A stretch of 64,000 nucleotides of DNA from positions 62,001 to 126,000 of the forward strand of contig JAULBX010000892.1 of NCBI GenBank assembly GCA_032358255.1. Direction: 5' to 3'. The notes under the pieces are model-generated. The model did no database searches. It saw nothing but the letters and a program-made list of their open reading frames with translations, and had not been told where the DNA came from. The DNA comes from Heterotrichella gracilis. Taxonomy: Eukaryota; Sar; Xanthophyceae; Tribonematales; Xanthonemataceae. How positions within the stretch are numbered: position 1 is the first letter of the stretch; each line of letters begins with the position of its first letter. This document shows positions 682 through 60,296 of the stretch, in pieces. The translations under genes and the position numbers were made by a program.

Positions 682-3600
682 TTAGCTACCCCCCTCCCCT
701 GCCATCCCCTCCACCGGTTCTGAGCTCTCATACACCGCCACGTAGGGCTCGTACACGCGGTCCTCGATTTGCTGCACTATGGCCTGGAACAGGGGGCCTT
801 CCACCTGCTCCCGCTGCCTGCTCTTGAGCTGCAGCTGCAGGTTGCTGTCTGTAGGGTGCGGGTGGTGCACCACGTAGGCGCTGGGGTGCACCTGCAAGGG
901 TGTGAACCGGCATTCAGGGTTCAGGGTTTAGGGTGTGGTCGGTGGGGTGCAGGTGGTCACCACGTAGGCGCTGGGGTGCACTAGAGGGAGCAGAAACGGC
1001 TTTAGGGTTTAAGGTGCAGGGTTTGGGGGTTGCAGGTGGTGCACCACATAGGCACTGGGGTGCAACTGCGTTGAGGAGAACCTCTTTTTAGGGCTGAACC
1101 CGAATGCATGTCCAATGCAAACCCTAAACCCTACCGCTTGTGAACCACACCTAAACGCCAGCTGCTGCTGCACCGCAGGCTGAACACAAACCCTAAACCC
1201 TACTGCGTGCCCCACACAAACCCCAAACCCTGATGCATGTCAACCACACCTAAACGCCAGCTGCTGCTGCGCCGCCCGGCTGACCACATGCACCGCTCAA
1301 TACCCCACCCAGCCACACTGCCTTCACTTTTAATCTACACAAGCTTGTAAAGCTGCTGCTGCACCGCCAGGCTGACCACAAACCCTAAACCCTCCTGCGT
1401 GCCCCAAAGCAAACCCTAATCCCTAATGAACGTGAACCACACCTTGAACGTCAGCTTCTGCTGCACCGCAGGCTGAACACAAACCCTAAACCCTACTGCG
1501 TGCCCCACACAAACCCTAGACCCTACCGCATGTCAACCACACCTTGAACATCAGCTGCTGCTGCGCCGCCCGGCTGACCACATGCACCGCTCAATACCCC
1601 ACCCAGCCACACTGCCTTCACTTTTAATCTACACAAGCTTGTAAAGCCGCTGCTGCACCGCCAGGCTGACCACAAACCCTAAACCCTCCTGCGTGCCCCA
1701 AAGCAAACCCTAAACCCTAATGAACGTGAACCACACCTTCAACGCCAGCTGCTGCTGCACCGCCAGGCTGAACACAAACCCTAAACCCTCCTGCGTGCCC
1801 CACACAAACCCTACACCCTAATGAACGTGAACCACACCTTGAACGTCAGCTGCTGCTGCACCGCCAGGCTGAACACATGCACCACCCGATGCACAATCCA
1901 GCCCCGGATGCGCTCGTCGAAGCGGGGCAGCGCGCTGCGCAGGCCCATGAAGAAGGGCTCGTACTGCACAAGGAAAGACATTGTTTAGGGTTTGGGTCTT
2001 AGGGTTTAAGGTTTAAGATTCAGGGTTTGGCGTGTTGCATGGGCGGGGAGGGACACTGGATAGGGTCTAAGGATTAGGGTGGAGGGTTTGGTGTGCTGCG
2101 CAGGCCAATGAAGAAGGGCTGTTTTTCCTCCCCTCTGACATTTTCCACTTCCCCCCCAGTTCCAAAGAGGGAGAATACGGCTGCCGCTGCGTCCATAGGC
2201 TGTGGACGGTTATCAATCCTTCAGTGTTATATTGCATCAAATCCACATTACATCGTCGCCATTATATTACATCACATCCGCAACGTACCAGTGGAATACT
2301 CTTTACAAAACATCATCACCATCACATTACATGATGTAATATACTGCGATGTAAATTACATCCCATCCGTGACGTACCAGCGGCTGGGCCCCATAGGTGA
2401 CAGTGTAAGGGTCCTTGCTGTCGCGCCACCTGAAGTAGTCGGTGCGCATTTGGTATGCCCTAGTGAAGGGTTTCACCCGCGCCACCATCAGCAGCCCCAC
2501 CACCACCTTCTTGCCGCCTGCAGATGGAGCAAAATTTGTAAATAGAAGGGAATATTGCCAAGCGGGATTATGTGACAAAGTCAACTATACCCTGGCGGTA
2601 ATCCTTTGCGGATTTACAGAGCCAAACTCCATGCTAGGAGGGGCGGGGGGAGAGTAGTCTGTGCCCATTTGGTATGCCCTAGGGAAGGGTTTCACCCAGG
2701 CCACCATGAGCAGCCCCACTACCTTCTTCCCGCCTGCAGGAGTATTTAAGAAAGACATTTAAATTCTGGGGCATACCAGCAAATCCTACTGCACTTAGAA
2801 TACAAGCAACTAATCAGTATTTAGGGATCATTAGGGGTTGAGTGTAGGGTTTTAGGGCACAAGGGACACCCTGGAGTGACAAGACCGTCACACACTCACC
2901 TGTCCGCGCCTGTTCGAAGGTGCGCACTTTGTTCCTGTAGTTCTTCCCCATCACATCAAATGCAGGCAGGACCAGCAGCGATCGGTCTTTGACCAAGTCG
3001 TGGATCGATGCAACGGCCTCGTCGGTCGCAAGCGATTCACCAAACTCCGCATCGGCTACAAAGTCCACATCCAAATGCAGCAGCAGCTGCAATGGGAATC
3101 AACACATGAGACTGTCATGCAAAGAGGCACTTACATCATGATGAGTATGGCTATTGTCCAGTATGCACTTGTATTGCACCACAAACTGTATGAAAAGTAT
3201 CCCTGTATCTATGGTGATCACCATGCACAACCCTGTGAGTGGTTTCACACACTGCACGGGCTGCAAAGTCCACATCCAAATGCAGCAGCAGCTGCAACAA
3301 CAGTGTCAAAAAGGCTCAGATGAGTAAAACAGGCAAAGCAGCACGAGAAGCAATTTTTAATTGTCTGTGCAGGGAGGTAGAATAGTGCATTAAAAGCAAT
3401 TTAAATTGTCTGTGCAGGGAGGTAGAATAGAGCATTAAAAGCAATTTTTAATTGTCTGTGCAGGGAGGTAGAATAGAGCAGGGACCATGAATCATGCTGC
3501 ATCTGTCAGAGGTTTGAGGTCCATCACATGCATGCAGTCCACTCCACCTCTGTGTGCGCCAGGTCCGCCGCCTTGTTGCGCAGCGAGTCAGGGTTTAGAG

Positions 3601-6600
3601 TTTTACGGTGTAGGGAGTATAGTTAAGGGAGTAGGGTTTAGGGCCCACCCCACCTCTGTTTGCGCCAGGTCGGCTGCCTTGTTGCGCAGCGAGTTTAGGG
3701 TATAGGGATTAGGGTTTACTGTATACGGCGTAGGGTTCAGGGATTAGGGTTTAGGGCCCGCCCCACCTCTGTTTGCGCCAGGTCCGCCGCCTTGTTGCGC
3801 AGCGAGATTAGGGTTAAAAGATATAGGTACAGGGATTAGCGATTAGGGTTTACCGTTTAGGGTTTAGGGTCCGGCCCACCTCTGTTTGCGCCAGGTCGGC
3901 CGCCTTGTTGCGCAGCGAGTTAATTGGGTACAGGCTCCACATGTCCATGTCCAAGGAGGTGTGCCCTAGCTCCTCGGAATACAGCGCCAGATCCAAATTG
4001 CACTGGCCTGATGCAGCGTAAAATTCAAGGTAAGTGCCAGGATGGGTGCTTGTATGGGGGCACACATCCAATTGGACCAACAGGGTGTATAGGTGGACTG
4101 CTGCGTTTACAACTTGAGGAGGATTTGGAAGATGTTCAGGCAGGTGTGGCCCAGCTCCTCAGGATACAGCGCCAGGTCAAGGTTGCACTGGCCTGATGCA
4201 GCGCAAAATTGAAGGTTAGGTCCAGGATGGAGGCATGTGTGCTTGTAAGGGTGTACAACATGCTTCGAGCCAGGCGCATGCTAGCGATTGGACCAACAGT
4301 GTTTATATTCAAATTTATGCATTCCTGCATGTACAATTTTGGAAGATATTGGGAGGTGTCCATGTTCAAGGGGGTGTGCCCTAGCGCCAAGTCAAGGTTG
4401 CACCGACCTAGTGTAGCAAAAAAACATGCAGGTAAGAGCCAGGATGGGTTTGAGCCAGGGTGAATGCAAGCGTGCTTCGAGCAGGGCATGCTAGTGATTA
4501 TACCAACAAAGTTTACAAGTGAAATGCTGCATCTTTAAACTTGGATGTCCATGCCCAGGGGGAGGTGGCCCAGCTCCTCGGGATACAGCGCCAGGTCAAG
4601 GTTGCACAGCCCTGGTGTGGCAGGAGACTGTGAGGATGCGGTGCGGTAATGGGGTGGATTATGCAAATGAATTTCATTTCTGAGTTCTTAAAGAAGTGGA
4701 AAAGTCAGACAGCCCCAAGCTAAGTATGACGACCCCTGATCCCCTACGCCAACCCTAAACCCTACTTAAGCTGTCACGTGGGGCTCCCTGAAGTGGAGCA
4801 AGGGGCAGAAATGAAACCAGAAATGAAATCAGAAATGAAATCAGAAATGAAATCGGATCGACGAGTTCTCACAGGGGACCCCGTACACTCATCAATGTGT
4901 GCCTTGAGGAAAACAGCACCAGGTCTATGGCGCTCTGGCCCAGTGTGGCAGGTCACAATGCGGGTTAGAGCCAGGGTGTGCTTATGCATGTTTCGAAGTT
5001 AACCTACGTTGGTGCAGAGCAATTATTTGCAGCCTGCACCTACCGCAGTGGTTGGCGAGCTTGTGGACAGTGTGCATCTCCCTAAACCCTAAACCCTGAA
5101 CGCTTACAGTTGGGTCACAGACGCAACTGCACCTACCGCGGTTGTTGGCGCGCTTGTGGAAGGTGTGTAGCTTCTCCTTTATTTGCTGGATGCTGGCTCC
5201 GTCGAACTGGGGGAAGTTCGGGGTGTGCGTGGCGTTGCCATGCATTGGCAGATACACCACGGCTGACACGGGCCCCCCCCAGGACTTGCAGTGTATCAGC
5301 AGCATGTACAGCCTGCACAAGGGTTTCAAGGGTTTCAAGGGTTTCAAACTTATTTCTATATGATTTAAGATTGTCCTCTAACTACTTGCTGTCGTTCAAC
5401 AGCATGTACATCCTGTGCAGGGCCTTCAGGATCAAGATTTCAGGGATCCTTGATGGAGATAACATGGTACTTTGCAGGTACACCACGGCTGACACGGCCC
5501 CCCCCAGGACTTGCAGTGTATCAGCAGCATGTACAGCCTGCACAAGGGTTTCAAGGGTTTTGAAGTGAAGTGCTGTGGAGACCTCACACAAGATTCCACG
5601 GTACTTATGCAGAAGAGCTCAAATTGAGGACCAGACACAACACCTTGCACTGCAATAGAAGCGCCAACAATATGACGCTGGCGTGCTTAGGGTGTGCAAC
5701 CCAGGCGCCATTTCGGCCAACTCGCTCACCTGTCTATACTGAGGTGCAGGGTGAGGGTGACTGAGCTCTCTCGCCTGGGCTTCCTCCCTCGCAGCAGGTG
5801 CCTTAGATGCAGTTGGGCAGCATGCTGCTCAAACTGCTTCAGAGACCCCTCCACTTGGGCAGAGGTCAGTGACGAGGTCTGCAGGGGCGCGGTTTGGTTG
5901 ATAATAAGGATTACAAGCATTCCGGCACGTAAACAGATGAGCAGCATAGTACCGGCTACAACCACAATTTACAGCTGCATGCGCAGCTACAGTGCCATTT
6001 GTGCAGCTTTTGCAGGGTTTAGGGTTTAGGGTTTACGATGCCGTGCGTGCCCCAGTGGGGTGCCCCCACCAACAGCGGCCATGCGCCTAGCCCGACCCTA
6101 AACCCAAAACCCTAGCCAAACCCTGGGTGCCAAGTGGCAGCCCCATGCAACCTTGCAGCAACCCCCTCCCAAAGGTCCCACCTAGATGCTTGGCTGCTCA
6201 AGGGCACATGGGCAGCCCCCTCCACCATCCCCGAAGGATTTAGGGTTTAGGGTTTAGGCGTACCTGCAGCGCCTCGTCGGCCAGCGAGTGGACAGTATCC
6301 GCTCAGGTGTTTAGGGTTTGAGATTCAGGGTTTAGGGTTTAGGCGCACCTGCAGCGCTTTGTGGGCCAGCGAGTGGACAGTGTCCCGCTCAGGGTTTTAC
6401 GGTTTACGGTTCAGGGTTTAGGGTTTAGGATTTCTAAACGAGCACCTGCAGCGCCTCGTGGGCGAGCGACCGGACAGTGTCCAGCTCAGCATGCAGGGAA
6501 TCATCGTCTGTGTGGCTCTTTTGGTGTGGCTCAGGCACTACGGTCTCGTTGCTTAGGGATGCCCAGGTGTGCCCCTCTTGAGTGCGCCGTTCCTGGGCCA

Positions 6601-6982
6601 ACCTGCGTGTGTGTGGTGTGCCCCTGTGGTGGTGGTGGTGGTGGTGGTGGTGGTGGTGGTGGTGGTGGTGGTGGTGGTGTTTCCATTCACCCTCCTGTGT
6701 AGCAGTCACCAGTTCCTGCAGGAAGGTAGAATGGTGAGCGTGCCTCTCCTGAGTGGTAGACCCGGGTGCAAGGTACAAACTGATGCAACTATGCGATGTG
6801 TGCAGAGCCCCTGCAGTGTGCAGAGAACTACGAGCGTCGGTGATGTGCGCACCAGTGACTGTTGCAGTGACCCTTCTTACCAGGTGTTGGAACAGGGTGG
6901 ACACCAGCACCAGCCTCCACACCACAGGAGGACCCATCACCATGCTGCCCCCCTTGCTCGTCCCCGTTTCACTCCATCGCAA
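682..6982 (-). CDS. GT49 family (LARGE-like) glycosyltransferase
   Basis: The product is predicted to be a Golgi type II membrane glycosyltransferase of family GT49, the family of the beta-1,4-glucuronyltransferase B4GAT1 and the second LARGE domain. Exons on the minus strand are 6982-6446, 5878-5730, 5312-5137, 4007-3880, 3086-2900, 2517-2378, 1963-1838 and 891-682. They join in frame to 550 residues. Exon 1 has a hydrophobic stretch near residues 20-37 that could be the signal anchor, and an 18-residue histidine run. Family motifs appear in order: SIDRLYMLL, SWGGPVSAVVYLP, YPINSLRNKAA, the DXD-type metal site LLHLDVDF, LLVLPAFD, TDYFRW, YEPFF, LPRFDERIRGW and AYVVHHPHP. Acceptor sugar and substrate are unknown. 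Introns are crowded with copies of exon edges and TTTAGGG-like motifs. The start codon is the least certain part. Confidence 0.85.
950..1066 (-). repeat. Two truncated copies of GT49 exon 8 start
   Basis: Positions about 951-981 and 1034-1065 repeat the first ~25-30 bp of the last GT49 exon (891 downward, encoding VHPSAYVVHH), including its edge near the acceptor. They lie in the intron just upstream of the real exon. TTTAGGG-like runs lie between and beside them (about 925-935, 1001-1025). Confidence 0.75.
1140..1790 (-). repeat. Array of about seven copies of GT49 exon 7 3' end
   Basis: The 3' edge of exon 7 (coding for FSLAVQQQLTFK and the GTGTGG donor, real copy 1838-1875) recurs near 1155, 1255, 1355, 1450, 1550, 1655 and 1745. 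Most copies are followed by CAAACCCTAAACCCT. A larger unit of about 300 bp is also duplicated: the stretch beginning at about 1256 is almost identical to that at about 1553 for close to 100 bp. All copies lie inside the intron downstream of the exon. Confidence 0.85.
2653..2740 (-). repeat. Copy of GT49 exon 6 5' part
   Basis: This stretch repeats the 5' half of exon 6 with its acceptor region (real copy about 2440-2522, encoding GGKKVVVGLLMVARVKPF). It sits in the preceding intron. The copy lacks the rest of the exon. Confidence 0.8.
3228..3300 (-). repeat. Copy of GT49 exon 5 start
   Basis: The run reading GCAAAGTCCACATCCAAATG plus the following CAGCAGCAGCTGCAA on the plus strand occurs here and at the real exon 5 start (about 3058-3092). 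It includes the acceptor CAG and the codons for the DXD motif LLHLDVDF. It lies in the upstream intron. Confidence 0.8.
3349..3480. repeat. Tandem repeat, three units of about 50 bp
   Basis: Three near-identical units share AATTGTCTGTGCAGGGAGG followed by TAGAATAG. They lie in GT49 intron 4. The unit contains TGTGCAGG, a splice-acceptor-like word, but I see no coding content. Confidence 0.85.
3535..3810 (-). repeat. Three copies of GT49 exon 4 3' end
   Basis: Copies at about 3538-3590, 3648-3693 and 3762-3808 repeat the end of exon 4 (real end 3880; coding LRNKAADLAQTE) with its GTGGG donor. TTTAGGG and variant runs separate them (for example 3623-3640, 3697-3760). They lie in the intron immediately downstream. 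Confidence 0.85.
4130..4620 (-). repeat. Copies of GT49 exon 4 5' and middle part
   Basis: Stretches at about 4139-4205, 4375-4440 and 4545-4615 repeat the 5' or middle portion of exon 4 (coding QCNLDLALYSEELGHTSLDMD). They lie in the upstream intron. The remnants carry substitutions such as stop codons or lost acceptors. Only the 3880-4007 copy joins both neighbours in frame. Confidence 0.75.
4808..4858. repeat. 12-bp tandem repeat
   Basis: Four units of a GAAATGAAAtCA-type 12-mer lie in GT49 intron 3. They are probably a minisatellite. Confidence 0.9.
5478..5562 (-). repeat. Copy of GT49 exon 3 5' part
   Basis: This stretch is nearly identical to 5258-5340, the first part of exon 3 (coding LYMLLIHCKSWGG), its acceptor and the flanking GGGTTTCAA repeats. 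A more decayed relative lies at about 5388-5430. Both are in the intron upstream of the real exon. Confidence 0.85.
6240..6410 (-). repeat. Two copies of GT49 exon 1 3' end
   Basis: Copies at about 6262-6302 and 6345-6393 repeat the exon 1 end (coding DTVHSLAxEALQ) with a GT donor (GTACGC, GTGCGC). TTTAGGG tracts separate them (6239-6258, 6309-6341, 6413-6430). Each copy keeps the reading frame and a usable-looking donor, so alternative splicing among them cannot be excluded. Confidence 0.85.
6627..6680. repeat. (GGT/CAC)n trinucleotide repeat coding poly-His
   Basis: Eighteen GTG/CAC triplets in a row lie inside GT49 exon 1. On the coding (minus) strand they read as an uninterrupted histidine run. 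The repeat length is divisible by three. Confidence 0.95.
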
Positions 6983-7646: not shown

Positions 7647-10211
7647 GCCGCCTCCCTCAAGCTGGCATCCTATCGCATTGCGCGTTTGCCGGGCCAGTTT
7701 ATAGGCTTACAGGCCACCCTCGCCCGCATCCATGTGAGCCCCAGAGCCCTCCCAGGACTTGTGCTAGGCGGCGGCAGGCGGGGGCTGGCCCTCTCCGCAT
7801 CGGCCCCGGGCAACGCTCCCATGCTGCAAGTGCACCATGCGGACGGCCAGGCGAGGAGTGGGGTGCTCACTTTCCAGCGGGGACAGCTCAACACTCCGGG
7901 GCTCCTGGTGTACACGAGGAGGGGAGGGGTATTAAACCTCACGCCTGACCTGCTGGAAAGGCTGCGGCCGGAGCTGCAAGCGGTGCAGATGGACGCGATG
8001 CACTTGTGAGTCGAACCCCACATCGCCGCCAACCCCATGCATACATTATGCATGCATACATGCCGAGGGGGCGCCGCTTGCTGTGCAGCCCACTTCCGAT
8101 CCCAAGTCGTTGATTTCAGTTGACTCTCTTTCTCCCCCCGCAGCGTCAAATACCCTTCACCGGACATCCTGCGGGAATATGGCAAGGGCATCCACAAGTT
8201 CACTGCCCTCGAAGAGTACCTCATCGTGGCAACCACCCGCGACCCCACAACCTACGAATACGGGGTGCGCCCAAACGCCGACAAGCACGTCTTTGCAAGC
8301 GTCCACAGTGGCACCTACCCCGTCAGCCCTGCCCTGTACATGGAGATCATCGACGCCATGCAGCCCGATGTGTTTGTGGTGCTCAGCGACGAAATCATGG
8401 CAGATGCGCGGCCCAAACGGTGCGTGGTGTCTGTCAGTCGGACGCTGCGGTGGCTGGATGAGTGCTTAGAGCTGCAGCGGGGCCTGTCGGTGAGCGCCAC
8501 GCCTGTCTTGGCCTCCATCCAGGTAAAGCCTGAAACCCTACACCCTACACCCTAGAACCCTAAAGCCAACCCAGCATCATAGTCAGGCGAGCAGTGCTGA
8601 CGAGTGCTTAGAACTTCAGCGGGGCCTGTCGGTGAGCGCCATGCCTGTGTTGGCCTCCATCCAGGTAAACCCTAAAACCCTAAACCCTACACCCTAGAAC
8701 CCTAAAAGCCATCCCAGCATCATAGTCAGGCGGGCAGTGCTGATGAGTGCTAAGAGCTGCAGCGGTGCCTGTCGGTGAGCGCCACGCCTGTCTTGGCCTC
8801 CATCCAGGTAAACCCTAAAACCCTACACCCTACACCCTAGAACCCTAAAGTCATCTCAGCTTCATAGTCAGGCTAGCACTGTTTTGCGGTCACCCACATA
8901 CTGCAACGTACCAACCCTAAACGCATTTGCACATGTGATATGTTGTAGCTGGGTGCATTTTGAAACCCTTGTACCCTGTAGACACACACAGGGGGATGGG
9001 TCCCCTGAGCAGCGCAAGCGGTGCGCTTTAGAAGCGATGACCCCAACTTTTATACCCTAAACCCTTATACCCTACAGGGCGGCGGGTCACCCGATCAGCG
9101 CAAGCGCTGCGCATCCGAGGCCGCCAAGCGCCCCGTAGCTGGATTCATGATCAGCGGTCTGGGGACCGGGGAATCCCCGGGACAGCGTTCGGAGCTCATG
9201 GGTGTGGTGATTTCGCAGCTGCCGGCTTCCCTCCCCCGTTTCGTCACCGGTCTCGGCACCCCTGAGGAGATCCTGCATGCTGTGGGGCAGGGGGTGGATG
9301 TGTTTGACAGCGGATATATTGAGAGCGCCACCAGTCAGGGGTATGCACTCACCTTCCCGCTCCACCCGGAGAGCCATGTGAGCAGCCAAGATGCGCCCGC
9401 GTCCTCGGAAACCCCAGACTCTCCACACAGCCCACCAGGAAGCCAAGGGAAGGAAAGAGGTGAGGCTCAGCCCGGTCCATCCAACGGCCATGTGGGGGTG
9501 AATGGACACGTCAGCACGCCGGGAGTGGAGCTGGTGGGATCTGATGACTCCAAGATCAACCTGTGGGCTGAGGGGTACACGTGGGATCAGGGTCCTCTGC
9601 TTGAGGGCTGCCCCTGCTTCACATGCCAGCACTACACCAGGGGCTATGTGCACCACCTCCTGCAGGTCAGTAGCACTGCCTAGTATGCTTTTGCAAGTAT
9701 TGCTAGTTCTTGGGGACTTCAGTTGCACTTACCATGAGATGCATCCACCAATCGATGGTTCCATCCCAACTGGGGGCTAGTGCATAGTTGATATGCAGCT
9801 TTACTCACGCCCTTGATTTTCTGTTGGTGTGTGCTCGGAAACCCTAAACCTTGAACCCTAAACCCGCATCAGGCTGCTGCTGGTGCGCGAAGGGCCACGA
9901 GCAGCTTGCCACCGCCCTTCTACTGTAATGTGCACAGGGCCTTGAAACCTCAAACCCTAAACCTAAATGTATTTGGTGCGCGCAGCGCCAGACCTGCTTG
10001 CCGCCGTCGTCATATATGCCAGAGCTCTTAGATGCTAAACCCTAAACATTGCTTGCCCTTGCAGGGCCACGAGCTGCTTGCGACTGTGCTGCTTGAGATG
10101 CACAACACGCACCACTACCTGGAGTTCTTCAAGGCCATCAGGGGGAGCATACAGGAGGGCAGGTTTGAGCAGTACAAGCGGGCTTTCCTGGCGAGGAAGG
10201 CACTGGTGTAA
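7647..10211 (+). CDS. QTRT2: Queuine tRNA-ribosyltransferase accessory subunit 2 (5' incomplete)
   Basis: QTRT2 is the non-catalytic partner of TGT (QTRT1). The heterodimer exchanges guanine-34 for queuine in tRNAs with GUN anticodons. Supported exons are about 7647-8005, 8144-8522, 9078-9665 and 10065-10211, joining in frame to about 490 residues. Recognisable segments are LNTPGLLVYTRRGGVLNLTPDLL near the N terminus, HSGTYPVSP, SGLGTGES, FVTGLGTPEEILHAVGQGVDVFDSGY, and the zinc site CPCFTCQHYTRGYVHHLL (Cys-Cys-Cys-His). The end resembles QTRT2 (HNTHHYLEFFKAIR). An extra low-complexity Ser/Pro-rich insert lies near 9380-9530. No in-frame ATG exists between the upstream stop at 7623 and the conserved region, so a short first exon upstream is inferred. 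Introns 2 and 3 carry copies of neighbouring exon edges. Confidence 0.92.
8590..9035 (+). repeat. Copies of QTRT2 exon 2 end and exon 3 start
   Basis: The last ~65 bp of exon 2 with its GTAAA donor (real copy 8458-8525) recur at about 8599-8667 and 8746-8812. Each is followed by CCCTAAAACCCTA-type runs. Near 8985-9030 a copy of the exon 3 start (GATCAGCGCAAGCGcTGCGC in the real exon) is preceded by an acceptor-like ACACAG. All lie in intron 2. Confidence 0.9.
9870..10020 (+). repeat. Two copies of QTRT2 exon 4 start
   Basis: About 9900-9932 and 9978-10012 resemble the acceptor edge of exon 4 (real 10057-10090, GCAGGGCCACGAGCTGCTTGC). They lie in intron 3, separated by CCCTAAACC-type words. 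Confidence 0.75.
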
Positions 10212-11304
10212 GGGGTTTCACCCTGAGTACAGCATGCCAAGTTCGGCCGCGCGGTTGTGTCCATTGTGCTTGCAGTCCCCAGGCAGCCAAGCTATTGCAC
10301 TGGAATGCACATGGAGTACCTTTTTCTATTTAGTTATTCACATCTTGTCACTGACAGGATTTTTGAAGAAGGAATTCATCTAGTAGACTTTACGTTGGAC
10401 GTTGACGTTGATGTTGAACCTATTCTTTTAATTGGTGAGGAAGAATTCCCTTGCCCTTCCAAGGTGCCACTGGCTTCTTATGAAATTCAATATGCCATAC
10501 CAGGTAGTATGTAGCGGCGATCGTTGAAGTAGCAGGTTTTGCACTTCAAGTTGGTGGTCTTCATAAAGGTGAACCTGGTCACCCGGCAGATTTGGCTTGG
10601 TGAATATCGGGCACTGCATGCCATTGGCATTTCACAGCTGCAGCAACTGTGTCCCCATGTTCCGCTTATGACTCTCTGAGAGTCAGGATCAACCGAGGCT
10701 CGTTTACAATGGCATAAAAACGCAAACGACAATTTGAATGCACTGAAATTCCCTTGACCACCTGGGGCCCACCGTGGCTACACTACACTGTCAGTAGTAA
10801 CTGGGAAAGTACATTCCATAACGTAGTACATAATAACACCAGACATAATAATGCCAGACAACACGCAAACAAAAATGCTATTATACAGTCATGCCAGCGA
10901 TACATGGGTCCTGACTCCTGGTGCTCACTGTCAGTGGCAGTCAACATAATGGGTCAATGATTGTTCAAATTGGCTGCATAACCCACTACAGGCCCACAAC
11001 CTGGCCTAAGGTCTCGGGCCTCAGGCTTCGGTGCCAGCTGGCACCAATTGACCCAGCGTTCCCCAGCATGAAAACACGATGCTGCAAAAACCCAACCACC
11101 TTCACGGGAAAATGTCAGCAGCCCCAAAACCACGGCACGGTGCCCAGCTGACCAGCTTGATGGTTCAAACCCAGGGCGCACATAGGGCAACAGCGAGCAA
11201 ACACCGCGCTGCAGCCCTTGTCATCCCACACCACGCAGCCTGCTTCCTTGCGCAGCTCCCCTCCCGACCATGCGCCCGGCGTGGAGTACAGGGGTTTCCC
11301 ACAG
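10212..11304. other. Convergent spacer, no recognisable gene
   Basis: This region lies between the 3' ends of QTRT2 and the SP1-like gene. Short open frames exist but none shows a known motif or splice partner. Confidence 0.5.
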
Positions 11305-14300
11305 CTAGGTGCGGTACACCTTTATGACTGGGGAGCGCGCCCGACAGATGGGGCAGCTGGCCAGCTTGTTGGCGCATCCCCAGCAGGCGCACATGTGTCC
11401 ACAGGCTGTGAACACCGCGCTGCAGTCCTGGTCGTAGCACACCACGCATGCGTCCTTGCGCAGTTCCCCGTCGTCCTCGTTGCAACCCTCTAGGGTTCCC
11501 TGGTGGGCCTGCAGCTCCTGGCGCAGCCTGCGGGCCTCCTCCATGCGCTTCCTGAACGACAGCAATGGCATGGGGTGTCAAAGGGATGGAACATCACTAT
11601 GGTAGGAAACCCCTGGCAAGGGGGGTCATTAATTAAATACTCCCCTAGGTGGAATTCAACCATGACAGTGCCAGGTTTTGGTGTAAGTAAGTTGGTAATT
11701 GGTACATTACACAGGTTGTTTTAAAGAGGTCCCCTGGTGGGCCTGCAGCTCCTGGCGCAGCCTCCTCCACGCGGTTTCTAAAACAGGGTTCAGGGTCTAT
11801 GGCCAAAAGAGGAAGTTTACTGAGACTACACATGGAGCGCGAAGTTTGGCTGCGCATTAATACAGCCATGGCAGAGCAGGGGGATTGTGGCAACATGATG
11901 ACGACTGCAAGGATGGGATCATGCAACGGGTGATAGGATCATGCAGCGCATACCTGAATCGCTTTTGCTGCAGGTAGCTGGCGGTAGTGCGCACAATCTT
12001 GGTCACGATCAAGCACACGCCCAGCGCCCCAAAGCCAACAGCAATCATCCTGCACCAATCAACCACAATCAGATGTAATATCAGCATCAGCAAGAGAGGC
12101 AGCCAAGTGAGCAGGGTCCTTCACAACCCATGAAGAAGCCGTTATTTATGACTAGCAATGTGCAGCGCCACCACTTTGACATACGGTGCGCGCCAGGACA
12201 ACCGCGCCTGTCACATGTGTACCCTACACCCAAAACCCTCAGCCTGTCACATGTGCACCATCCACCTGATGCACAGCAAAGCGCTACGTCAGCAGCGCCT
12301 GCCACATATACGCGCCAACATTCGCTTGATCGCACAGCATCAATAATGTAAATAATTGACAATTTTGATTAATGACCACATCGAATGGAACACAAAACTA
12401 CATTTAATACAATGCGCATAAATACCTGCAGGCTTTTGACATGCTGGTAAGAGATGCCACCAGCTCTGGGAGGCTGTGCTCCGTGATGATGAAGGGGCTT
12501 CCGTTCTCTGGCGCATGCAGGACCACCACGTCCCCGTTGGCGTGCATCACCCCAGGGAACTCGTACTGCCCACTGATATCTCCAGGCAACGAGCTGAGCT
12601 CACCTGCAGGAGTGTGGATGAAAGTTCAGGAGCCAGTAGAAGCGCATGGTATTCAACCATGGGGACACCCATGCACTGCTGGTGCAGTGCGCATAACCGT
12701 GCGATTCCAGCCATGCATGGAGGCAATGTGCATGATCTCTGTTTGCTACCCATCCAGTAACAAGCATAACCCAACCATAAAACAAGCCTAACCCGAAAGG
12801 AGTTTCTAGGATATGCAAAAAGAATGTCCCACGTACCGACAGCGGTCACGCGCGCCCCAACAGGCAGGACGCTCTCGGTCCTCTTCCTCCCCAGCACCCG
12901 CAACCCTAGTAGGTTATCCACAAGCTTCCGGGGGCCGTTGCGCTGGTCATCTGTAAACTCGTCACCTGCGCGCCAATAACACTAGCCGTGAGGCATTTGC
13001 ACTAATTCACCTGTGCAACAGTAGGAAGCAAGAAATAAAAAATGCCCACAGGTGACAGTAACAGTAGCTGTGGGCCGTTTGCGCTGGTTCATCTGCGAGC
13101 CAGTGACAGTAGGAGTGAGGCAATTGCACTGATTCACCTGCAAAACATGATAGCGTGTAGCTGCGAGGCGTTTGCGTTAACTCACCTGCATGCCGGTAAC
13201 AGTAGCTGTATTAGGGTTCAGAGTTTAGGGTTTATCAGGCATTCGCACTCATTCTCTTGCGCGCCAATAACAGCAGCACTTCAGAGTGTGACACCCAGAA
13301 CCTAGTGCACCAACGAAAGTAGCTGTGGGCAGTTTGTGTCCGGTCACCATCTGCCCCAGAGGTGAAGGGTTCATCTCAATTCAATAAAACTCCATTGAAT
13401 TGAGATCCCAGGCACAGACACCCTAAGTGATGGCCGTGGTGGTCACAAAAACCCTAGGTGAAACCCCTGGCAGGCTCCAAAACCCTAGGTTGTCACCCTT
13501 GAGCAAGCTAAGCCGTGGCCTCCAATCCTGACATACCAACAAAACTCCAATGGCAGGCCCTCAGCTCTCCTGCCGTCCACAACCGGCAGGCGCACCCTTT
13601 CTACCCACGGAAACCCTAGCTGAACACCTTCGTGGCCCCTAAAAACTTGTAGTGACCCCCCACGGGGCGGCAGTAACCCTAGGTGCACACCCCTTAGCCA
13701 AAAGAACCCTGTCACCTCCAATCCTGACGTACCAACAAACTCCAAGGGCAGGCCCTCAGCTCTCCTGCCCTCCACAATTGGCAGGCGCACCCTTGTGCCG
13801 TCCTCCAGGCACCAGGCCGTTTCCCGCATTATGTGCCGCACGGTCTGGCTGTCCCGCACCCACTCCCCGTTCTCAAGCTGCTTCATGCACTGCTGCTCCT
13901 CCTGCACCTGAATGCCACAGAGGACGGGTGGTTAGCAAGCACAGGAGTGGACGTATGCAGTTAGAAACTGTTCGCTCTCCAGCTGTTTTATGCACTGCTG
14001 CTCCTCCTGCACCTGAAAGCAGGCACAGAGGACGGGTGATGCGCATGTGGACTAGGTTTATTCATTTTCCAGCCGTTTCATGCACTGCCATTCCTTTTTG
14101 TACCTGCCACCAAGGTGGGTGGCCTCGTTTCTGGTTCCTTAAAGTGCAGAGCCAGGTGACCCCTCATATTCGCTGTTCCAAATTGTGGTCAGGTTCTGAG
14201 CTAGGGTTTACAACGGTGCAGGCCAAGATATAAGGTGGCAACCCTCACTGCGTTTTTGACTTGCTTCAGGACTGCCTGTGACTAACAGCTTAAGTGGGCT

Positions 14301-42384: not shown

Positions 42385-42527
42385 TGATCTGAACACCATG
42401 TGATGCTCTACTCGGGGTCTGCAATGCTCTACTCGATGTCTACAAGCCGTTGATCATGCTTGACTGGAACCCAGCCAAGGTTCACGGCAGAGCTGCCTGG
42501 TTGCTTCTAAAGCAGCTGCACCACATC

Positions 42528-51110: not shown

Positions 51111-52659
51111 ATGCAAGCCACACAGAGCCTGGGAGCCTGCCGCGAGGCCTTTGCAACAAGGTGGGGCCTTTGCTGCATTGGCTACTTGAAGCGTGCACAC
51201 TTGCGCTGTAGTTCGTGTACTGACTGGATGGCATAGGTGCAGGCCATCATCAAGCGCAGCCAGGCCAAGCAGGCAGACTGTCCAAGCAGTCCGTGCCCAG
51301 CAGGTATTCTCCTCGCAGCTGTTGAGAGTTATCTCATGGAATTTTGCTGCACGTTATGACATATCACCGCTTGCCAGCCAACGTGATGGCACTCTCCACT
51401 ACACACACAAATGTGGAACCATAGGATATCCTTGACAGCGTTGTTGTAACCGTCCACTTTGCTGCCTGCAGACCACTGGCGAGCTGAGCAGGCGTGAGGC
51501 AGTGGCCAGTGCAGTTGCTATGGCTGCTGGCCTCCTGTCAGCCTCACCTGCCCATGCTTTCTTGGGCTTTGGGGAGAACAAGGAGGAGGTGTACCTGAAA
51601 GAAACGGTGGGGACAGATAGAAACACACTGACTGGTTTGCTGCAGTGACTGCTGTTGTTCAGGTATCCTGACCTCTGGTGCTTTACAGGGCGATATGATT
51701 GTGGCAGCAAAAGCAGTGATTGCTTTGCCCAAGGATGCCCCCAACAAGGCAGAGGCCCTGGCAGCCGTTCGGCAGCAAACCAACGCGTGGGTGGCAAAGT
51801 ACCGCAGGGAACCAACCTTTGGAGGACGCGCGTCATATGGGTAAGTCTTCTCACTTCACATTGAGCCTGTGGCAACCCCTGTGGCAAATCCAGATGTATA
51901 TATACTATGCACACCGACCCCATCTAACCACTTGCTTGTGCAGCAGCACATACCCATTGCTGTGTACCAGAAGCTTACCACTCACATTGTCTCTGCAGCA
52001 ACACATACACGGCTTTGAACGCTCTCGCCGGCCACTTCAACAGCTTTGGGCTGGAGGCGCCCATCCCCAAGAAGCGCCTTGAAAGGATCACCAAGGTATT
52101 GAAAGTAGCCACCCGCGTTGCAGTTCACACCGCATGGTACCCTAACTACGTAGGAAGGGTTGAGAGTTCACAAGCCACGCCGTGCTGACTTGCGCAGCTA
52201 CCTCTATGGCGTTGTTGCACCATCACTGGATGGCATGTGTATGACCTGTGGAGAGCACCTATCCCTAAGAAGTGCCTTGAAAGAATCACCAAGGTGGGTG
52301 ACTAGTCACCCGCATTGTAATTCGCATGGGCATAACTTATGCATGTTGCGGGTACCTGAAGTAGGGTCGAGGGCGCACAAGCTATGCCATGGTCATGATG
52401 CCCATAGCGTTGTTTCACGTGTATGCCTGCTGCAACATTAATAAGTGTCATTGCCACTTGCCTGGAGGCCATTGCCGCAAATGTAGCTGCACCATATCAG
52501 CTTATTACTTGGTCTTTGTTGCAAATGTAGCTGCAGCAACTTAGCTAACGACCTCGTGCTTGTCCTGATCTGTGCTCTTTTCTATCATGCTTTCTTACAA
52601 GGCGTTGCTTTCTGCAGGAGCTGGAGGATGCCACCAGGGCTCTTGGCCGCGGGCGCTAG
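51111..52659 (+). CDS. PSB27: Photosystem II assembly/repair factor Psb27
   Basis: Psb27 is a thylakoid-lumen protein that binds CP43 during PSII assembly and repair. Exons are 51111-51160, 51243-51303, 51472-51606, 51689-51840, 51999-52095 and 52618-52659, giving 178 residues. A bipartite presequence is visible: an Ala/Ser/Arg-rich stroma-targeting part, then SRREAVASAVAMAAGLL ending in the lumen cleavage motif AHA before FLGFGENKEEV. The RR pair suggests Tat import. Family hallmarks are TNAWVAKYRRE, GRASYGNTYTALNALAGHFNSFG, APIPKKRLERI and the C terminus ATRALGRGR. The next gene (53.5-56.9 kb) is another PSII-assembly relative. Confidence 0.94.
52240..52345 (+). repeat. Copy of Psb27 exon 5 3' end with donor region
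   Basis: About 52246-52340 repeats the end of exon 5 and the intron beyond (real copy about 52050-52150). Shared words include CCAAGAAGCGCCTTGAAAGG (here CTAAGAAGTGCCTTGAAAGA), ATCACCAAGGT and CACCCGC. It is in the downstream intron and could act as a weak competing donor. Confidence 0.85.
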
Positions 52660-53510: not shown

Positions 53511-56500
53511 TCAGTTTGTCAGCGACCGCATGAACCGCTGTATCGACGCAATTGTTGAGCCAATGACCTCTCCCACCCCTGCCTCCTGGGGCTTGCCATC
53601 CTCCCCAACCGGCCTCAGCGAATCCATGATCAGCTCATCCAACGACTCCCCTGCAACAGGGCACATGCACGTCAAAAATCACAGCCACAGCTGATGCACA
53701 ACAAAGGGTACAGTATGATATCTGCATTTCACACCACCATTGCAATGCGAGGATTTTCAACCTGTCTGCCACGGCTGTGAACATGCATGTCACTCAGCGT
53801 AGCTCTCTCCTTCCACCCAGCGGTTGGTAAGGGTTTTAGGGGTTCAACCCGGTTTCGGGTTTCTCCATCCAGCGTACCTGATGGCCGCTCGCGCTGCTCG
53901 GCAATGCGCCAGTAGCGGCCGTGAACGCGTGCACGTAAGGTGGCCAGTCATTGAGCCAGCGGCAGCACAAGGCACTTGATGCAGGGCCTATAATGCACTC
54001 CACAACTTCATGCTCTCATGACATGCATGTGATCCAGCGTTGCTCTGCCCCCTCCACCCAGCAGTTGCTTAGGGTTCCAGCGCACCTGATGGCCGCTCGC
54101 GCTGCTCGGCAATGCGCTTGTAGCGGCCCGGTGCACTCTCATCCTCAACGAACACCTGCCACATGCCGGGGTAGCGCCGGAACCTGCGTGAAGAGCACAT
54201 TTCACAAACCCTACAAACTTGCACCATGAGATACAGAGAAATCAACTACAGAACAATGGAGGAACCGAACTAAAGAACTTCAAATAGGGAGAGAAAGAAA
54301 TAGCATGGGCGCCTGCCGCGATATGAAAACCAATGTAGTGTATAGGCCTGGGCTGTGGTCATGCAGCAGAAGAGAAAATTATTTCACTTACACTGATCCG
54401 ACGTCTCCCACGGGGCGCAGGGAGTAGGTGATGAGGAATGTGGATAGGAAGCCCTCCCTCAGGCGGCGCGTGCTCAGGCCCACGCCGACGTCGCCACTGC
54501 AGGCATTGGGGCGGCTTGAATGTGGCTACCATCGTGTGGGACTACACAGAAAGGTGGGGGGTACATGGACCCTACTACTGCCGATAATGAGACGGTTGGG
54601 TGTGGCTGCCATGTGCCATCTCCCCCATGCAGTGATGTTGTGTAGTTTGTGAAGAAGATATTTGCAATATGGAGGTACCCTGCCTGTCCTTGAACAGGCG
54701 CGTTGGTGAAGTAGAGCAGCATGATAAAGGCGCATGCACTGTGGTGAGGGTACAGGGTGTAGGGTGTGTGATGTCGGGGCACATAGTGGCGACTGGATTA
54801 CCTGAGCAGGCGAGGGTTAATTATGACCAGCAGGACATCCTCAGGCAGTGGTTTAGGGTTTAGGGTTTGTGTGTGGTGACTGGATCACCTGACCAGGCGG
54901 GGGTTAAACATGACCAGCGGGACATCCTCACGCAATGCTTCAATTCAAGGTGTGGGGTTTAGGATTCAGAGTTTTTGTGTGGCAACTGGGTTACCTGACC
55001 AGGCGAGGGTTCGTTGTTTAGAATTTAGGACTATGCAACGCAAACAGATTACAATTACCTGACCAGGCGAGGGTTGAACATGACCAGTGGGACGTCCTCA
55101 GGCATTGCTGCTGCGATCCGGCGGGCATCATCCAGGCCTTGCGGGTCTGGGGCAGCAAACACCACCAGCTGGTCATCCTCAGCCACAGGCTTTCGGTCGT
55201 TCAGGGATGCGAACTCAAAGGGGCTGTCCGGCCATTGGTTCTTGAGCATCGCTGCCACGCCCATGTCAGGGTAGATCTGCGCCCAATTTCCAAAAATAAA
55301 TCAAAACTAAAATAGATTGTCCAAGGTCTTTTTTCATGTGGTGATGATTTGAGGGCTCATGGGAAGAATTTTAGGGATGCAAACTCAAAGGGGCTGTCTG
55401 GCCATTGGTTCTTGAGCATGGCTGCCACGCCCATGTCAGGGTAGATCTGCACAGCCACGCATTGCAAATGCGGACATGATTCCACACTTGTGATCCAGAT
55501 GGCGACGACCCAGATGGGCAGCAGCATGAACCTGAGACGCCAACCCGAGGACAATGCTTTCTTCATGCGGTGATCAATGGAGAGATCAATGGATTTGGGG
55601 CTGGTTCAGGAGATAGCCATGGCTCTTGGTTCAAGAGAAACAGCATCAAGCTTCGGGCTCCTTGGAAATACATTGTGAGGCACGCATTTCAATAGCAGAC
55701 GAGACTTTGATGCGGCACTTGGCAGTTGCGGAGAATACAGGACGTGCAGGCAAGTATGACGAGATGCTCACAGAAGATAAAGGATTCTTGGCAGACGCTT
55801 AGGGATTGTCCAAAAGTGTAGGCCTGCTTACCGCCTTGATTCTGAGGCCCGGCGTGTTCTGGGCGAGGTTCTCCAAAAAGCGCTTAGTCAGCTTCCAGAA
55901 GCGCAGCTGGTCGCCTGTTTCAGCAAAGATTGCGCCAGAGGTGGGGTCCCAGAACTCGGGAAGGAGCACCTCCACCTGTGGAAGCAATGGCTTGTTAGTG
56001 AGGGCGGGTTTAGGGTATGCAGTGTAGGGTTTAGGGTTCCAGACTTCTGGCAGGAGCACCTACACACGCGGAGACAGTGGCCCACTGAAGGGGGGAGTAG
56101 GGTCTAGGGTCTAGGGTCAAGGGCTGGGTGGCATGGGTTGTATTTGGGTGGCTGCTGTACCGTATGTAACCAACTAACTAAACATAGTCGCGAGCGTGCA
56201 GTGGCTTACGGAGAACGCATCTGCCATTGGGTAGATGCCTAGCAACTCCCGTGCTAGTCGAAGGGCAAGTGTGGTATGCCATACATGGGGAGCAACACTC
56301 ACAATACACCGCTGCACTCCGCTCTCGATGGCCAGGCTGGTTGCCTCCCCCGCTTGCTCCAACGCATCGGCGAGGCTGTCTGGCAGAACCTGCACAGCAA
56401 CACCCCTTTAAACAAGGCATACATGTCGTATGATTAAGTATTGTTACTGGATAGTTGTAGTGGAGAAAGACGAGTGGAACCACCGCAGAGGTTTGATGCA

Positions 56501-57324: not shown

Positions 57325-60296
57325 ATGCTGGCTACGGCAGGCCCACATGCAGCCCATGGCGTCTGTGTGGCCAGCACGTCTGCGTGCTCGTATGGCCCCG
57401 CATCGTGCGCCAGCTGGCGGGCTGGCACCACCGGACTGCGCGTCTCTGGAAGGAAGAGCATGCGCAACGTGGCACTTCGCGGAATGGGAGCAAGTACGCA
57501 AGATCTTGGTTGGTTCCCTGCTGCATGCATTCACATGCGGTGCGCACCCTGATCCCTATCCCTGGCAGCAGTGAGGACGAGCGAGAGAAGAGCTTGTTTC
57601 CAGCTGAGCGCCTTGTTTGGCCAAGCTTCAGACCTGCCTTTGGAGCAGCAGGTTGAAAGGAGCACACTAGTGAACAATGAGGTGGTGCTCTTCATTTTCC
57701 AGCTGGTGAGCGCCTTCACACCCACACCACCACCACCACCACACCTCACCACAATGCACCACCCCGCCACCACCACACTGCATCACGTTGCACCAGCACC
57801 CTACACCGCCATTGGCTACAGCAGACTGCATCACTGGCCCCCACAACGCTCCACTACTCCGTTAGGCACACCACTTGGATGAGACACCGAGGTATTACTT
57901 TTGTTTTCCAGCTGGGTAGTGGCATTGTGTACTGGCCACCACCCTACCATCCCATCATCCCACCATGCCACTCCCAATCACATCACCACCGCCGGCATTC
58001 ACACCGCACTGCACCACAACCACACCACCTGACCCCTGGGTGGCTGCTGGTTGTTACCTCTTGCCTATGTACCGAGGGGGGTGCTTGGCTCCAGTCCTTG
58101 CGCTCGCAGCCCCCACACCATCTGCCACCACGACACCCATGCAACTACTCCACCACCCCACTTACGTACCCCTGCTGGAGCTTGATACCCTAAACCCTGC
58201 ACACAAAACCCTAAGCGCCACCCCTGCTGGAGCTTGATATCCTACATTTTAGGGTCTAAATCATGCACATTTAACTCTAAATGCTATCCCTGCAGGAGCT
58301 CGACACTCAGCTGAAACGGGCGCTGACCTATGAACGCTTTGATGTGGCGCAAAACATCCGCAGCCAACGGGATGAGATAGACGCTGCAGTGGCGCGGCTT
58401 CAGGTGCGTGGGGAGGTGTGGTGGGTGTGTGGCAAATGTTGTGGGTGTACAGTGGTGGTGTGGTGCTGCGGTGGTGGGTGGGTTGGCAGATGGTGTGGTG
58501 CAAGTGAGCTTACCAGCCGGATTAAAAACGCCACCCCAAGAAGGGGTTACACAGTACTTTCTATGCCTTGCTCATTCAAGGGCAGGCCTAGAGGGACTTG
58601 CAATAGACGTTACAATAGCTAATCTGTGTAAATGCCTTGTCGCTCAGCCTGGATGTCTATCAACATAGCAGTGTGTTTGATGCAGTATTTTAGGGGTGCT
58701 TGCCTGGCGCCAACCAACAAACCCTGAAATGATCAGTTTATTGGTGCAAAACCTGCAACCCTGAACCCTAAACTGCGTCGTCATCCGTTGTATTTGTTGC
58801 AGGCTTCTAAAGGTGCCAGCTCGGGTGCCAGCCAGGCAGCCGGCTCTGGCGTTGCGGATATTGCTACCGAGGGCCTGCGGCTGCGCTCGGAGATGCAGCG
58901 AGCAATTGAGTGCGAAGAGTGAGTGCCTGGGCTTAAGGTCACAGGTCATAGGGTTGACATTGCAGCTGGACAATTGCTCCTATGGCGATACTGCACTGAT
59001 TTCTGTCATGCTGGAGTGAATGTACCTGACGCCCCCTCCCGTAGATGAAACCTTAATCCTGCTTATGTCATGTGCAGCTATCAGCTTGCCGCACAGCTTA
59101 GGGACCAGATCAAGGCTGTGGAGTCCAAGTCAGCGGCAGCACAGGCGCAGGCAGCTGAGTGGAAAGGGCAAGGGGAACCCAAGTACAGGCTGGGGCAAAG
59201 GGTCGTACACTCCAAGCTGGGCTACCGGGCTGTGGTATGCGGGTACGTGTGGCAGTATTCACTGTTTCTGCCTGGGCAAGTGGCCATCCTGGCCGTCTCT
59301 AGGTGGCCTTTACGTCCTTTTGGGTTGTCCTGATCCGGGCTAACGGTGGTGATCCGATCTGATCTGTTCTGATCTGATCTGGGCTAATGGTGGTGATCCG
59401 ATCTGATCTGTTCTGATCTGATCTGGGCTGATGGTGGTGATACCTAAAATGACTCCTGTTGGTGGTTGTGGATAGGTGGGACCTGTCTTGCTGTGAAGAG
59501 TCAGAGTGGCGATGAGTACCACTTGTGATCCTATGCTTACTGATTTGGCGATACTCATCTTGCTGGGTGGACCTTGAACATGACTGCATGTGGCGGTGAC
59601 AGGTGGGACCTGTCTTGCTGTGAAGACTCGGAGTGGCAAGAGCAGGCGGGCGTGGGTGACCTGCCGCGCCAGGCCACCCAGCACTTCTACCACTTGCTGG
59701 TAGACATCCGGGACTGGCGCAGCAATGGGGACCAGCCGCCTGTGGGCTACGTGGCGGAGGATATGCTCACTGCTCCCGAGGTGCGGGTGGGATGGGTGGT
59801 GCCCATGTACCCTAAACCCTAAACCCTCAACCTTAAATCTACCTGCAGAACGCTGGGGAGTAGGCAACCCTGCCTGCTGTTTTCTCTGTCGGGTGCATTT
59901 TTGGGCAATAAAAAATGGGGACCAGCCGGTGGGCTACGTGGCGGAAGTTTCTCAGAGCTATCCTAAATTGCACTCAAAACGTAAACCCTCAACCCCAAAC
60001 CCTATATGTACTTGCTATCCACGCAGCACTGTTGTGCCTGAAACGTTTTGCCCTTCTCCCACACGCAGGAGCCTGCCACATGGATTGAGACCTACGGCGA
60101 TGACCAGCTGCAGCACCCCTACAGCTACCTGCTGTTCCTGGGGCAGGATGGCGCGGGGGACATGATCCCCTGCAGGCAGCTGCGGGACAAGTACAGCACC
60201 AAGCGGCGCGACGTGTACTCCTCAGGGGAGGAAAGTGATGAAGGTGAAGGGGAGGATGGGGATGGTGGGAAAGGGGACAGCCCGCCCCAGGTGTGA
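57325..60296 (+). CDS. CLPF: ClpF-like Clp-protease substrate adaptor (UVR + YccV domains)
   Basis: ClpF works with ClpS1 to deliver substrates to the chloroplast Clp protease. Exons are 57325-57508, 57569-57705, 58296-58403, 58803-58918, 59078-59242, 59603-59780 and 60069-60296, giving 371 residues (Arabidopsis about 330). A transit-peptide-like N terminus leads to the UVR motif ELDTQLKRALTYERFDVAQNIR. A second UVR-like helix pair follows (LRSEMQRAIECEDYQLAAQLRDQIKAVE). The YccV/HspQ-like domain comes next (YRLGQRVVHSKLGYRAVVCGWD, HFYHLLVDIRDW, VGYVAEDML, HPYSYLLFLGQD). The tail is acidic (SSGEESDEGEGEDGDGG). The exon 1 donor is the weakest junction. Introns carry edge copies. Confidence 0.85.
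58160..58245 (+). repeat. Two copies of ClpF exon 3 start
   Basis: CCCCTGCTGGAGCTTGATA occurs at about 58167 and 58219, matching the exon 3 acceptor edge CCCTGCAGGAGCTCGACA (58288). Both copies have CTG where the acceptor CAG stood, so they cannot splice. Each is followed by CCCTAAACCCT or TTTAGGG-like words. Confidence 0.85.
59340..59432. repeat. Tandem repeat with GATCTGATCTG units in ClpF intron 5
   Basis: Two ~49-bp units of GGTGGTGATCCGATCTGATC followed by TGTTCTGATCTGATCTGGGC lie in tandem, each internally built of GATCTGATCT. Confidence 0.9.
59465..59520 (+). repeat. Copy of ClpF exon 6 start
   Basis: AGGTGGGACCTGTCTTGCTG, continuing TGAAGAGTCaGAGTGGC, repeats the exon 6 acceptor edge (real 59601-59640). 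It lies in the upstream intron and keeps a TAG acceptor-like dinucleotide. Confidence 0.9.
59905..59955 (+). repeat. Copy of ClpF exon 6 3' part
   Basis: AATGGGGACCAGCCGGTGGG, continuing CTACGTGGCGGA, repeats exon 6 codons for NGDQPPVGYVAE (real 59725-59762). It lies in the downstream intron, after a CCCTAAACCCTAAACCCT run at 59811-59829. Confidence 0.85.

Follow-up and report, generated by a model that had tools for sequence, protein, structure and literature searches.

Direct copies of exon edges in the adjoining introns of Heterotrichella gracilis, in part separated by telomere-type repeats

What process copies the edge of an exon into the intron beside it? The question is raised by a window of 64,000 nucleotides from the alga Heterotrichella gracilis, in which the initial annotation had noticed short fragments of exon edges recurring within the adjoining introns of several unrelated genes. 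Young, datable examples of intron growth and of the origin of spare splice sites are usually lacking; copies at many stages of decay, part of them tagged by telomere repeats, make birth, age and effect on splicing measurable in one unicellular alga.

We analyzed the window together with 24 other stretches of the same genome assembly (68.5 Mb in 903 contigs), 302,434 bases in all (the 302-kb sample); L003 and L014 (low GC content and bacterial-looking ORFs), L008 (all N), L020 (1.3 kb), L001 and L002 were removed from it. Genes were predicted with a small gene-finding hidden Markov model self-trained on the sequence itself. The 302-kb sample contained 407 introns with exons on both sides, of which 36 were excluded from the edge tests for being shorter than 100 or longer than 1500 nt, leaving 371; exons shorter than 40 nt were also excluded. 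Pfam domains were present in five of five window proteins (GT49; TGT, here QTRT2; DUF1995; GIDE, of the SP1 type; and zf-met) and in six of seven predicted proteins from other stretches, each of the six covering one or more of the edges in question, while a match to Psb27 was found at window positions 52000-52113. The exon-exon junction of QTRT2 aligned without gaps to six homologues, which establishes that this edge is real; the closest named algal relatives of this protein were two Chlorella species (43-46%). Searches of Rfam gave no match in the window at gathering scores and none in five loci at E≤1. L003 (contig C1, 894 kb) and L014 (contig C100) have a GC content of about 35% and long uninterrupted ORFs of bacterial type, and the assembly thus contains bacterial contigs, by eye probably from Bacteroidota.

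Comparison of the window with itself by BLAST (E≤1e-3) yielded 68 direct pairs, 56 of them separated by less than 3 kb (pairs within arrays counted singly), and confirmed that exon-edge fragments are copied into the adjoining intron; those of the initial coordinates that we checked agreed to within a few bases. In the DUF1995 gene (reverse strand), the 5' edge of one exon at 55200-55280 has an 81-bp copy at 55370-55450 (95%), with homology stopping 4 nt into the intron, and the 3' edge of an exon at 55054-55109 is copied at 54797-54850, at 54884-54939 and, in short form, at 54991-55011 (54786..55109 overall, with a TTTAGGG run at 54850-54868). A further edge of this gene, at 54076-54128, recurs at 53868-53920 (94%), with more homology between 53781-53835 and 54021-54076; this region (53781..54128) is thus a tandem pair, one member of which carries a telomere-like insert. 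In the zinc-finger gene (reverse strand), an exon 5' edge at 33042-33115 is copied at about 33227-33300 and at 33399-33472, and a 3' edge at 35875-35912 is copied at 35735-35772 and 35810-35847, with TTTAGGG runs between. The Psb27 gene (forward strand) carries a copy of an exon 3' edge (52052-52129) at 52249-52326. Pairs are also found in the SP1/GIDE-type E3 gene (reverse strand, 11145..11763, identified by Pfam), at 11145-11261/11354-11469 and 11494-11529/11728-11763, and in a region initially labeled as ClpF, a putative assignment (reverse strand, 59471..60478), at 59471/59598, 59724/59914 and 60248/60380.

In the GT49 gene (reverse strand), about seven copies had been attributed to a single exon edge; we count three copies of a 3' edge and about three of a 5' edge. 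The former (source 3876-3920, within 3544..3921; exon assigned by eye and Pfam) lie at 3544-3588, about 3650-3695 and 3763-3807, with TTTAGGG-like runs between them, and the latter (source 3941-4013, exon assigned by eye) at 4132-4198, about 4357-4418 (weak) and 4545-4617. Two other 5' edges of this gene have one copy each: 3041-3092 is copied at 3246-3297, with homology ending about 6 nt inside the intron, and 2434-2523 at 2653-2739 (88%), beyond a non-homologous spacer of 129 nt. Dense tandem arrays with CCCTAAA/TTTAGGG runs occupy 846..1903 of the same region (reverse strand, self-BLAST). A three-copy block at 6235..6489 (reverse strand), with a period of ~85 bp and TTTAGGG runs at 6309-6343 and 6391-6429 between copies, had also been read as a GT49 edge, but the gene model predicts no exon there.

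QTRT2 (forward strand) presents a different structure. By self-BLAST its unit at 8457-8596 is followed by further copies at 8599-8739 and 8742-8881, and each 142-bp unit comprises the exon end (8457-8522 in the first), the donor and a CCCTAAA-type run 3' of the donor; the whole unit is duplicated, and this array is thus a plain tandem duplication. An acceptor edge of the same gene at 9074-9112 has a weak copy at 8988-9026 (82%, E 0.007). A search of the genome contigs returned no second copy, allelic or paralogous, of the QTRT2 or DUF1995 regions that could represent an empty site.

Exon-edge copying is real and strong, and it extends past the window. Within the 302-kb sample, 38 of 337 donors and 35 of 350 acceptors (73 of 687 edges) had the 40-mer of the exon edge repeated in the adjoining intron, whereas the same 40-mers had none in the inverted intron (0/687), in a random other intron (0/687) or in the intron on the far side of the exon (0/259 and 0/265). 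Exon 40-mers located 41-80 nt from the edge matched their own intron in 7/302 and 10/316 cases, and those at 81-120 nt in 1/245 and 4/263. Local pairs were direct in 172 cases and inverted in 3, and direct ones occurred in 15 of the first 16 sequences (the window and 15 stretches); 16 of the 24 other stretches, besides the window, contained edge copies proper. A recognizable copy is carried by 61 of the 371 introns of 100-1500 nt, or about one in six, and among the 34 genes that have four or more introns the copies are spread unevenly (P<0.0005). Offsets of local pairs are mostly 60-240 bp, with two humps near 100 and 200 bp. The dip between the humps, at 140-160 bp, is suggestive only, and recalls a length scale of chromatin or replication.

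The location of copies in the exon's own intron, initially put forward as a consistent rule, is automatic and proves nothing: whenever a duplication spans an exon edge, one of the two copies stays attached to the exon and the other falls in the intron. The informative quantities are instead how often duplications touch exons and what their anatomy is. Copied blocks have a median length of 63 bp (middle half about 45-85 bp), and the medians over 66 copies were 43.5 nt for the exonic part, 13 nt for the intronic part (7 nt in the youngest class) and 67.5 nt for the spacer between edge and copy. Most pairs look like short blocks that were parted by non-homologous filler from the start. Identities ran from 0.71 to 1.00 over the 66 copies, in keeping with the description of all degrees of decay, and it is solely from this spread that the process may be called ongoing. 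The 66 copies include 18 with frameshifting indels, and copies seem to be non-coding at present.

Two consequences proposed for the copies are also supported. Introns bearing them are longer (median 414 vs 271.5 nt), by an amount close to one block plus filler, and many copies retain a usable splice dinucleotide: among those whose homology reaches 3 nt or more into the intron, GT is present in 18/29 and AG in 22/25. Where intron homology is shorter than 3 nt, GT was kept in 2/7 and AG in 2/5.

The proposal that exon-intron junctions are what is targeted fared less well. The blocks are mostly exonic, and although a stop codon lacks a splice site, 5 of 41 predicted stop codons are followed downstream by a copy of the coding end. 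Two of the five gene ends are uncertain, one of them belonging to a questionable gene model in the window. The zinc-finger gene block at 32456-32489 (reverse strand), which by eye holds the gene's stop codon and so is not a splice junction, is copied at 32280-32313, and this pair appears to belong to the same kind. In stretch L016 the predicted stop is likely wrong, and the likely real one, identified by eye, has a copy 136 bp further on. None of 38 predicted start codons had a copy. Specificity of copying for splice sites is thus not established; as stop codons are copied too, the common feature may be the edge of coding sequence, a pattern that exon-biased breaks, with exonic events purged by selection, could account for.

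Telomere repeats, which had not previously been linked to the copies, point to break repair. TTTAGGG is this organism's own telomere repeat, because long CCCTAAA arrays open six contigs (C70, C140, C526, C609, C717 and C770) and are oriented there as expected; further long arrays of the motif are located elsewhere. A perfect 21-mer of the motif has 901 matches genome-wide (overlapping ones counted), versus 0 for the reversed control. Telomere octamers in both orientations occur at 4.9/kb in introns and 1.2/kb in intergenic sequence (reversed motif, ≤0.14/kb overall), and they are concentrated near junctions: 10-40 nt from donors, CCCTAAA reaches 4.6-8.6/kb and TTTAGGG 3.0-8.1/kb, and at the same distance from acceptors only CCCTAAA is enriched (6.7-10.2/kb), while at 50-190 nt the values are mostly 0-4.6/kb. 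Counting against this profile, the bin at 190-200 nt from donors has 9.6/kb of CCCTAAA, equal to the junction bins. Among introns of at least 150 nt, the motif was present within about 55 nt of the donor in 46/330, near the acceptor in 35/330 and in a central window in 15/330. We rejected the idea that the motif is a by-product of gene prediction, as the profile was unchanged when the motif was masked from the coding score.

The motif and the copies go together. A donor copy was present in 16/42 introns with the motif vs 20/265 without it, and an acceptor copy in 9/34 vs 19/278 (odds ratios 7.5 and 4.9). Local direct repeats flank 40 of 89 telomeric runs near exons, compared to 42/1023 controls (4.1%), and 21 of 72 runs deeper in introns, compared to 31/1890 (1.6%); the 17 runs that overlap predicted coding sequence were left out, and inverted flanking repeats around intronic runs numbered 0. 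Intergenic runs are few, with 1/9 and 0/4 flanked by repeats. For 57 of the 66 pairs (the other 9, with spacers <15 nt, were set aside), we asked where telomeric sequence lies, using a lenient count of two hexamers: the filler was telomeric and the sequence after the copy was not in 20 pairs, the reverse held in 4, both were telomeric in 8 and neither in 25 (P 0.0015). The excess of 20 over 4 argues for insertion with a long target duplication and not for duplication of a unit that already held the run. For the telomeric part, the inserts have the form of a target-site duplication, with local direct repeats on either side and no recurrence of the insert beyond the second copy. Filler was telomeric in 17/29 pairs with offsets <150 bp and in 11/28 with larger offsets. 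Such filler suggests that telomere machinery participates, although a test of priming polarity lent no support: gaps on the predicted telomerase-primer side were no shorter (medians 20.5 vs 7.5, 66 runs, P 0.11), with a trend opposite to expectation.

Our preferred reading, to which we would give about an even chance, is that introns grow by local duplications of the form block-filler-block that arise from break repair, are biased towards exons and are filtered by selection. From the structure of the pairs we infer a break with long staggered ends, both sides of which would be filled in and then joined, with telomeric or other sequence captured between them. The outcome would be an exon edge plus ~10 nt, filler, and again the exon edge plus ~10 nt, a direct repeat like a target-site duplication. 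Only events that place the extra copy outside coding sequence would persist under selection. The mRNA would remain unchanged, since the splice site of the outer exon edge is retained, and the extra edge would decay as intron. We know of no reason why breaks should favor exon edges.

Several observations stand against this reading. Fillers were non-telomeric in 29/57 pairs, some events are plain tandem duplications, and the exon edges themselves depend on the self-trained gene models. Divergence between exon and copy was 23.7% at fourfold sites and 6.9% at nondegenerate sites (ratio of third to first-plus-second positions 2.59, 95% interval 1.95-3.51), a contrast larger than the roughly twofold one predicted if the copy had never been under constraint. 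Finally, some non-telomeric acceptor cases have only 4-11 nt of intron in the block, so that filler acquired in one step would have to serve as both branch point and tract; these cases agree better with a copied block having been inserted into an intron that already existed.

That last possibility can be generalized: an exon-edge fragment might be copied by template switching during repair and inserted 100-200 nt away, the spacer being old intron. Besides the short intron homology at non-telomeric acceptors, this account draws on the spacer at L016, which contains sequence common to the introns of other genes and meets the copy at a GGGAG-like microhomology (by eye). Template switching, however, usually yields both orientations, and the 687 edges gave 0 inverted copies; the position of telomeric sequence, between edge and copy and not after the copy, is also contrary to it. 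We regard copying and insertion as unlikely but worth keeping in view.

A slightly less probable account has two steps, in which a whole unit is first duplicated in tandem and then acquires indels in its non-coding part, perhaps promoted by the telomere-like repeats. The DUF1995 tandem pair with its one-sided insert has the form that such a history would give, and 8 of 54 fillers tested retain residual homology to the sequence after the copy. The second step would, however, have to have occurred already in 12 of the 13 youngest pairs (≥93% identity), in which homology does not extend over the whole offset as it does in a plain tandem duplication.

The dull alternative, acknowledged from the outset, is that plain tandem duplications arise everywhere and that those at exon edges are recognized through their one conserved copy. 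The direct orientation of 172 of 175 local pairs, the duplication of stop codons and the existence of full tandem units (9/66 pairs with spacers <15 nt, plus the QTRT2 array) are as it would predict. We simulated it by placing random plain tandem duplications in the same annotated sequence, with offsets sampled from those observed and units that spanned more than one exon edge omitted, discarding those that broke coding sequence and matching the score threshold; exon third positions decayed at 0.7 of the neutral rate and indels at 0.12 of the substitution rate, with deletions of one base only and longer insertions. The 115 observed clusters of local pairs comprised 88 exon-involving, 13 intron-only, 4 intergenic and 10 exon-exon clusters; with the last omitted, 88/105 (84%) were exon-involving, vs 45% in the simulation, and at ≥90% identity the figures were 27/32 and 44%. 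A calculation with uniform breaks and no decay gave 12-18%.

Anatomy separated observation from simulation further. Homology on the intron side of ≤24 nt was seen in 13/13 pairs at ≥93% identity (20% simulated), in 64% at 88-93% (25% simulated) and in 50% at 80-88% (35% simulated), and a block shorter than 0.7 of the offset in 12/13 (0.5% simulated), 73% (4%) and 75% (18%) in the same classes, so that the contrast is smaller in the older identity classes with its sign unchanged. The telomere profile at junctions, moreover, is independent of exon conservation. General tandem duplication combined with detectability thus fails on both exon share and structure, and we consider it improbable as the main source of the copies.

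It is similarly improbable, in our judgment, that selection maintains the telomere motif near junctions for a role in splicing independent of the duplications, with CTAAAC acting as branch point 20-40 nt before acceptors and GGG runs acting after donors. The restriction of enrichment near acceptors to CCCTAAA, and not TTTAGGG, which would make a false AG, agrees with such a role, but both orientations are alike enriched near donors and the motif is tied to the duplications. The idea that the copies were once coding, as alternative exon edges or in-frame duplicates later stranded in introns, would explain the excess fourfold divergence and the position ratio, but is the most doubtful of all given the frameshifts in 18/66 copies, the spacers rich in telomeric repeats and the lack of inserted residues at the QTRT2 junction in six homologues.

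Known routes of intron gain share features with the block-filler-block events that we favor. Introns can be gained by tandem genomic duplication of an AGGT-bearing segment, in which case the offset about equals the length of the new intron, and in Daphnia they are gained by repair of staggered breaks; both likewise involve duplicated exon segments and splice-like motifs beside introns. The offset was within 25 nt of the intron length in only 1/66 copies, and that single fit to tandem-duplication gain is a 183-nt intron (L004:9042-9224) whose edge copy has a 193-nt offset. Introners are intron-generating mobile elements that form sequence families in introns; an introner family was rejected, since with the telomere motif masked only 12 matches, of mixed kinds, were found between stretches of the 302-kb sample.

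The phenomenon more closely resembles interstitial telomere insertion with target duplication, and the tandem duplications made by CST and Pol alpha. Mammalian interstitial telomeric sequences at repaired double-strand breaks are likewise short runs of the species' own telomere repeat inside chromosomes (PMC2246262, PMC7215372), and the runs described here agree with them in that the repeat unit is that of the six contig-start arrays. In the same reports, some of the mammalian loci have a direct target duplication ascribed to staggered breaks, and 31% of human insertions lie in introns, which was called compatible with random insertion (PMC2246262, PMC7215372). Simple duplications are rare there, at 6/130 rodent and 4/25 primate loci (PMC2246262) and 3/66 horse loci, with others in some complex horse loci (PMC7215372); in this alga, by contrast, repeats flank 40/89 of the runs near exons, and the motif is concentrated next to exon edges. 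CST-Pol alpha-primase fills 3' overhangs, producing small tandem duplications at breaks that are likewise direct and made from staggered ends by a complex that also works at telomeres (PMC8355091); the breaks in that system were made by Cas9 in mammalian cells, and the passages describing it mention neither telomeric filler nor exon preference. Rogers and Bendich (2025) interpreted direct repeats found at exon-intron borders as having been left by break repair (PMC11782384), but their repeats are 4-30 bp long and lie around the 5' and 3' borders, whereas the blocks in this alga are about 45-85 nt long, sit within an intron that already exists, at distances of mostly 60-240 bp from their source, and are accompanied by filler. 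The titles and abstract openings that we searched contained no prior report of exon-edge copies with telomeric filler, and the literature listings searched gave no description that matches in frequency, length and exon-edge position.

Exon-edge copies tie together break repair, the telomere machinery and intron length, and this case offers a route to studying intron lengthening through imperfect DNA repair. A bolder version of the break-repair reading, which we put forward only tentatively and think unlikely, is that some process able to sense gene structure, perhaps through spliced RNA hybridized to exon DNA or through exon-positioned nucleosomes, introduces breaks at coding-block edges, and that these are healed with telomere repeats and a duplicated exon edge; telomere-type repair would then be a main engine of intron lengthening, continually offering spare splice sites. 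What the data show is the structure of the pairs, their direct orientation and adjacency, the link to telomere repeats, the bias towards exons and the greater length of the introns; the staggered breaks, the repair route and the reason for the preference for coding edges are what we infer.

Other features of these introns were noted. CCCTAAAC is located 20-40 nt upstream of acceptors, where a CTAAC-like branch point is expected, and the telomere repeat may have been recruited as a branch site there. A ~75-nt sequence of about 81% identity occurs in predicted introns on five contigs, at L016:6650-6724 and, in L031-L034, at C313:51218-51290, C28:70512-70584, C183:60695-60763 and C862:6093-6160. 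It is the element contained in the L016 filler (6570-6716), has five matches in the genome and no Rfam match at E≤1, and lies in the sense orientation of its predicted host gene in 5/5 cases (only a short exon is predicted in L034); it is possibly a small intronic RNA or element. In a DUF1995 intron, a ~41-bp stretch at window positions 54666-54716 matches contigs C454, C249, C176 and C198 at 90%. The palindromes TGCATGCA and GCATGCAT are among the commonest intron octamers of the 302-kb sample.
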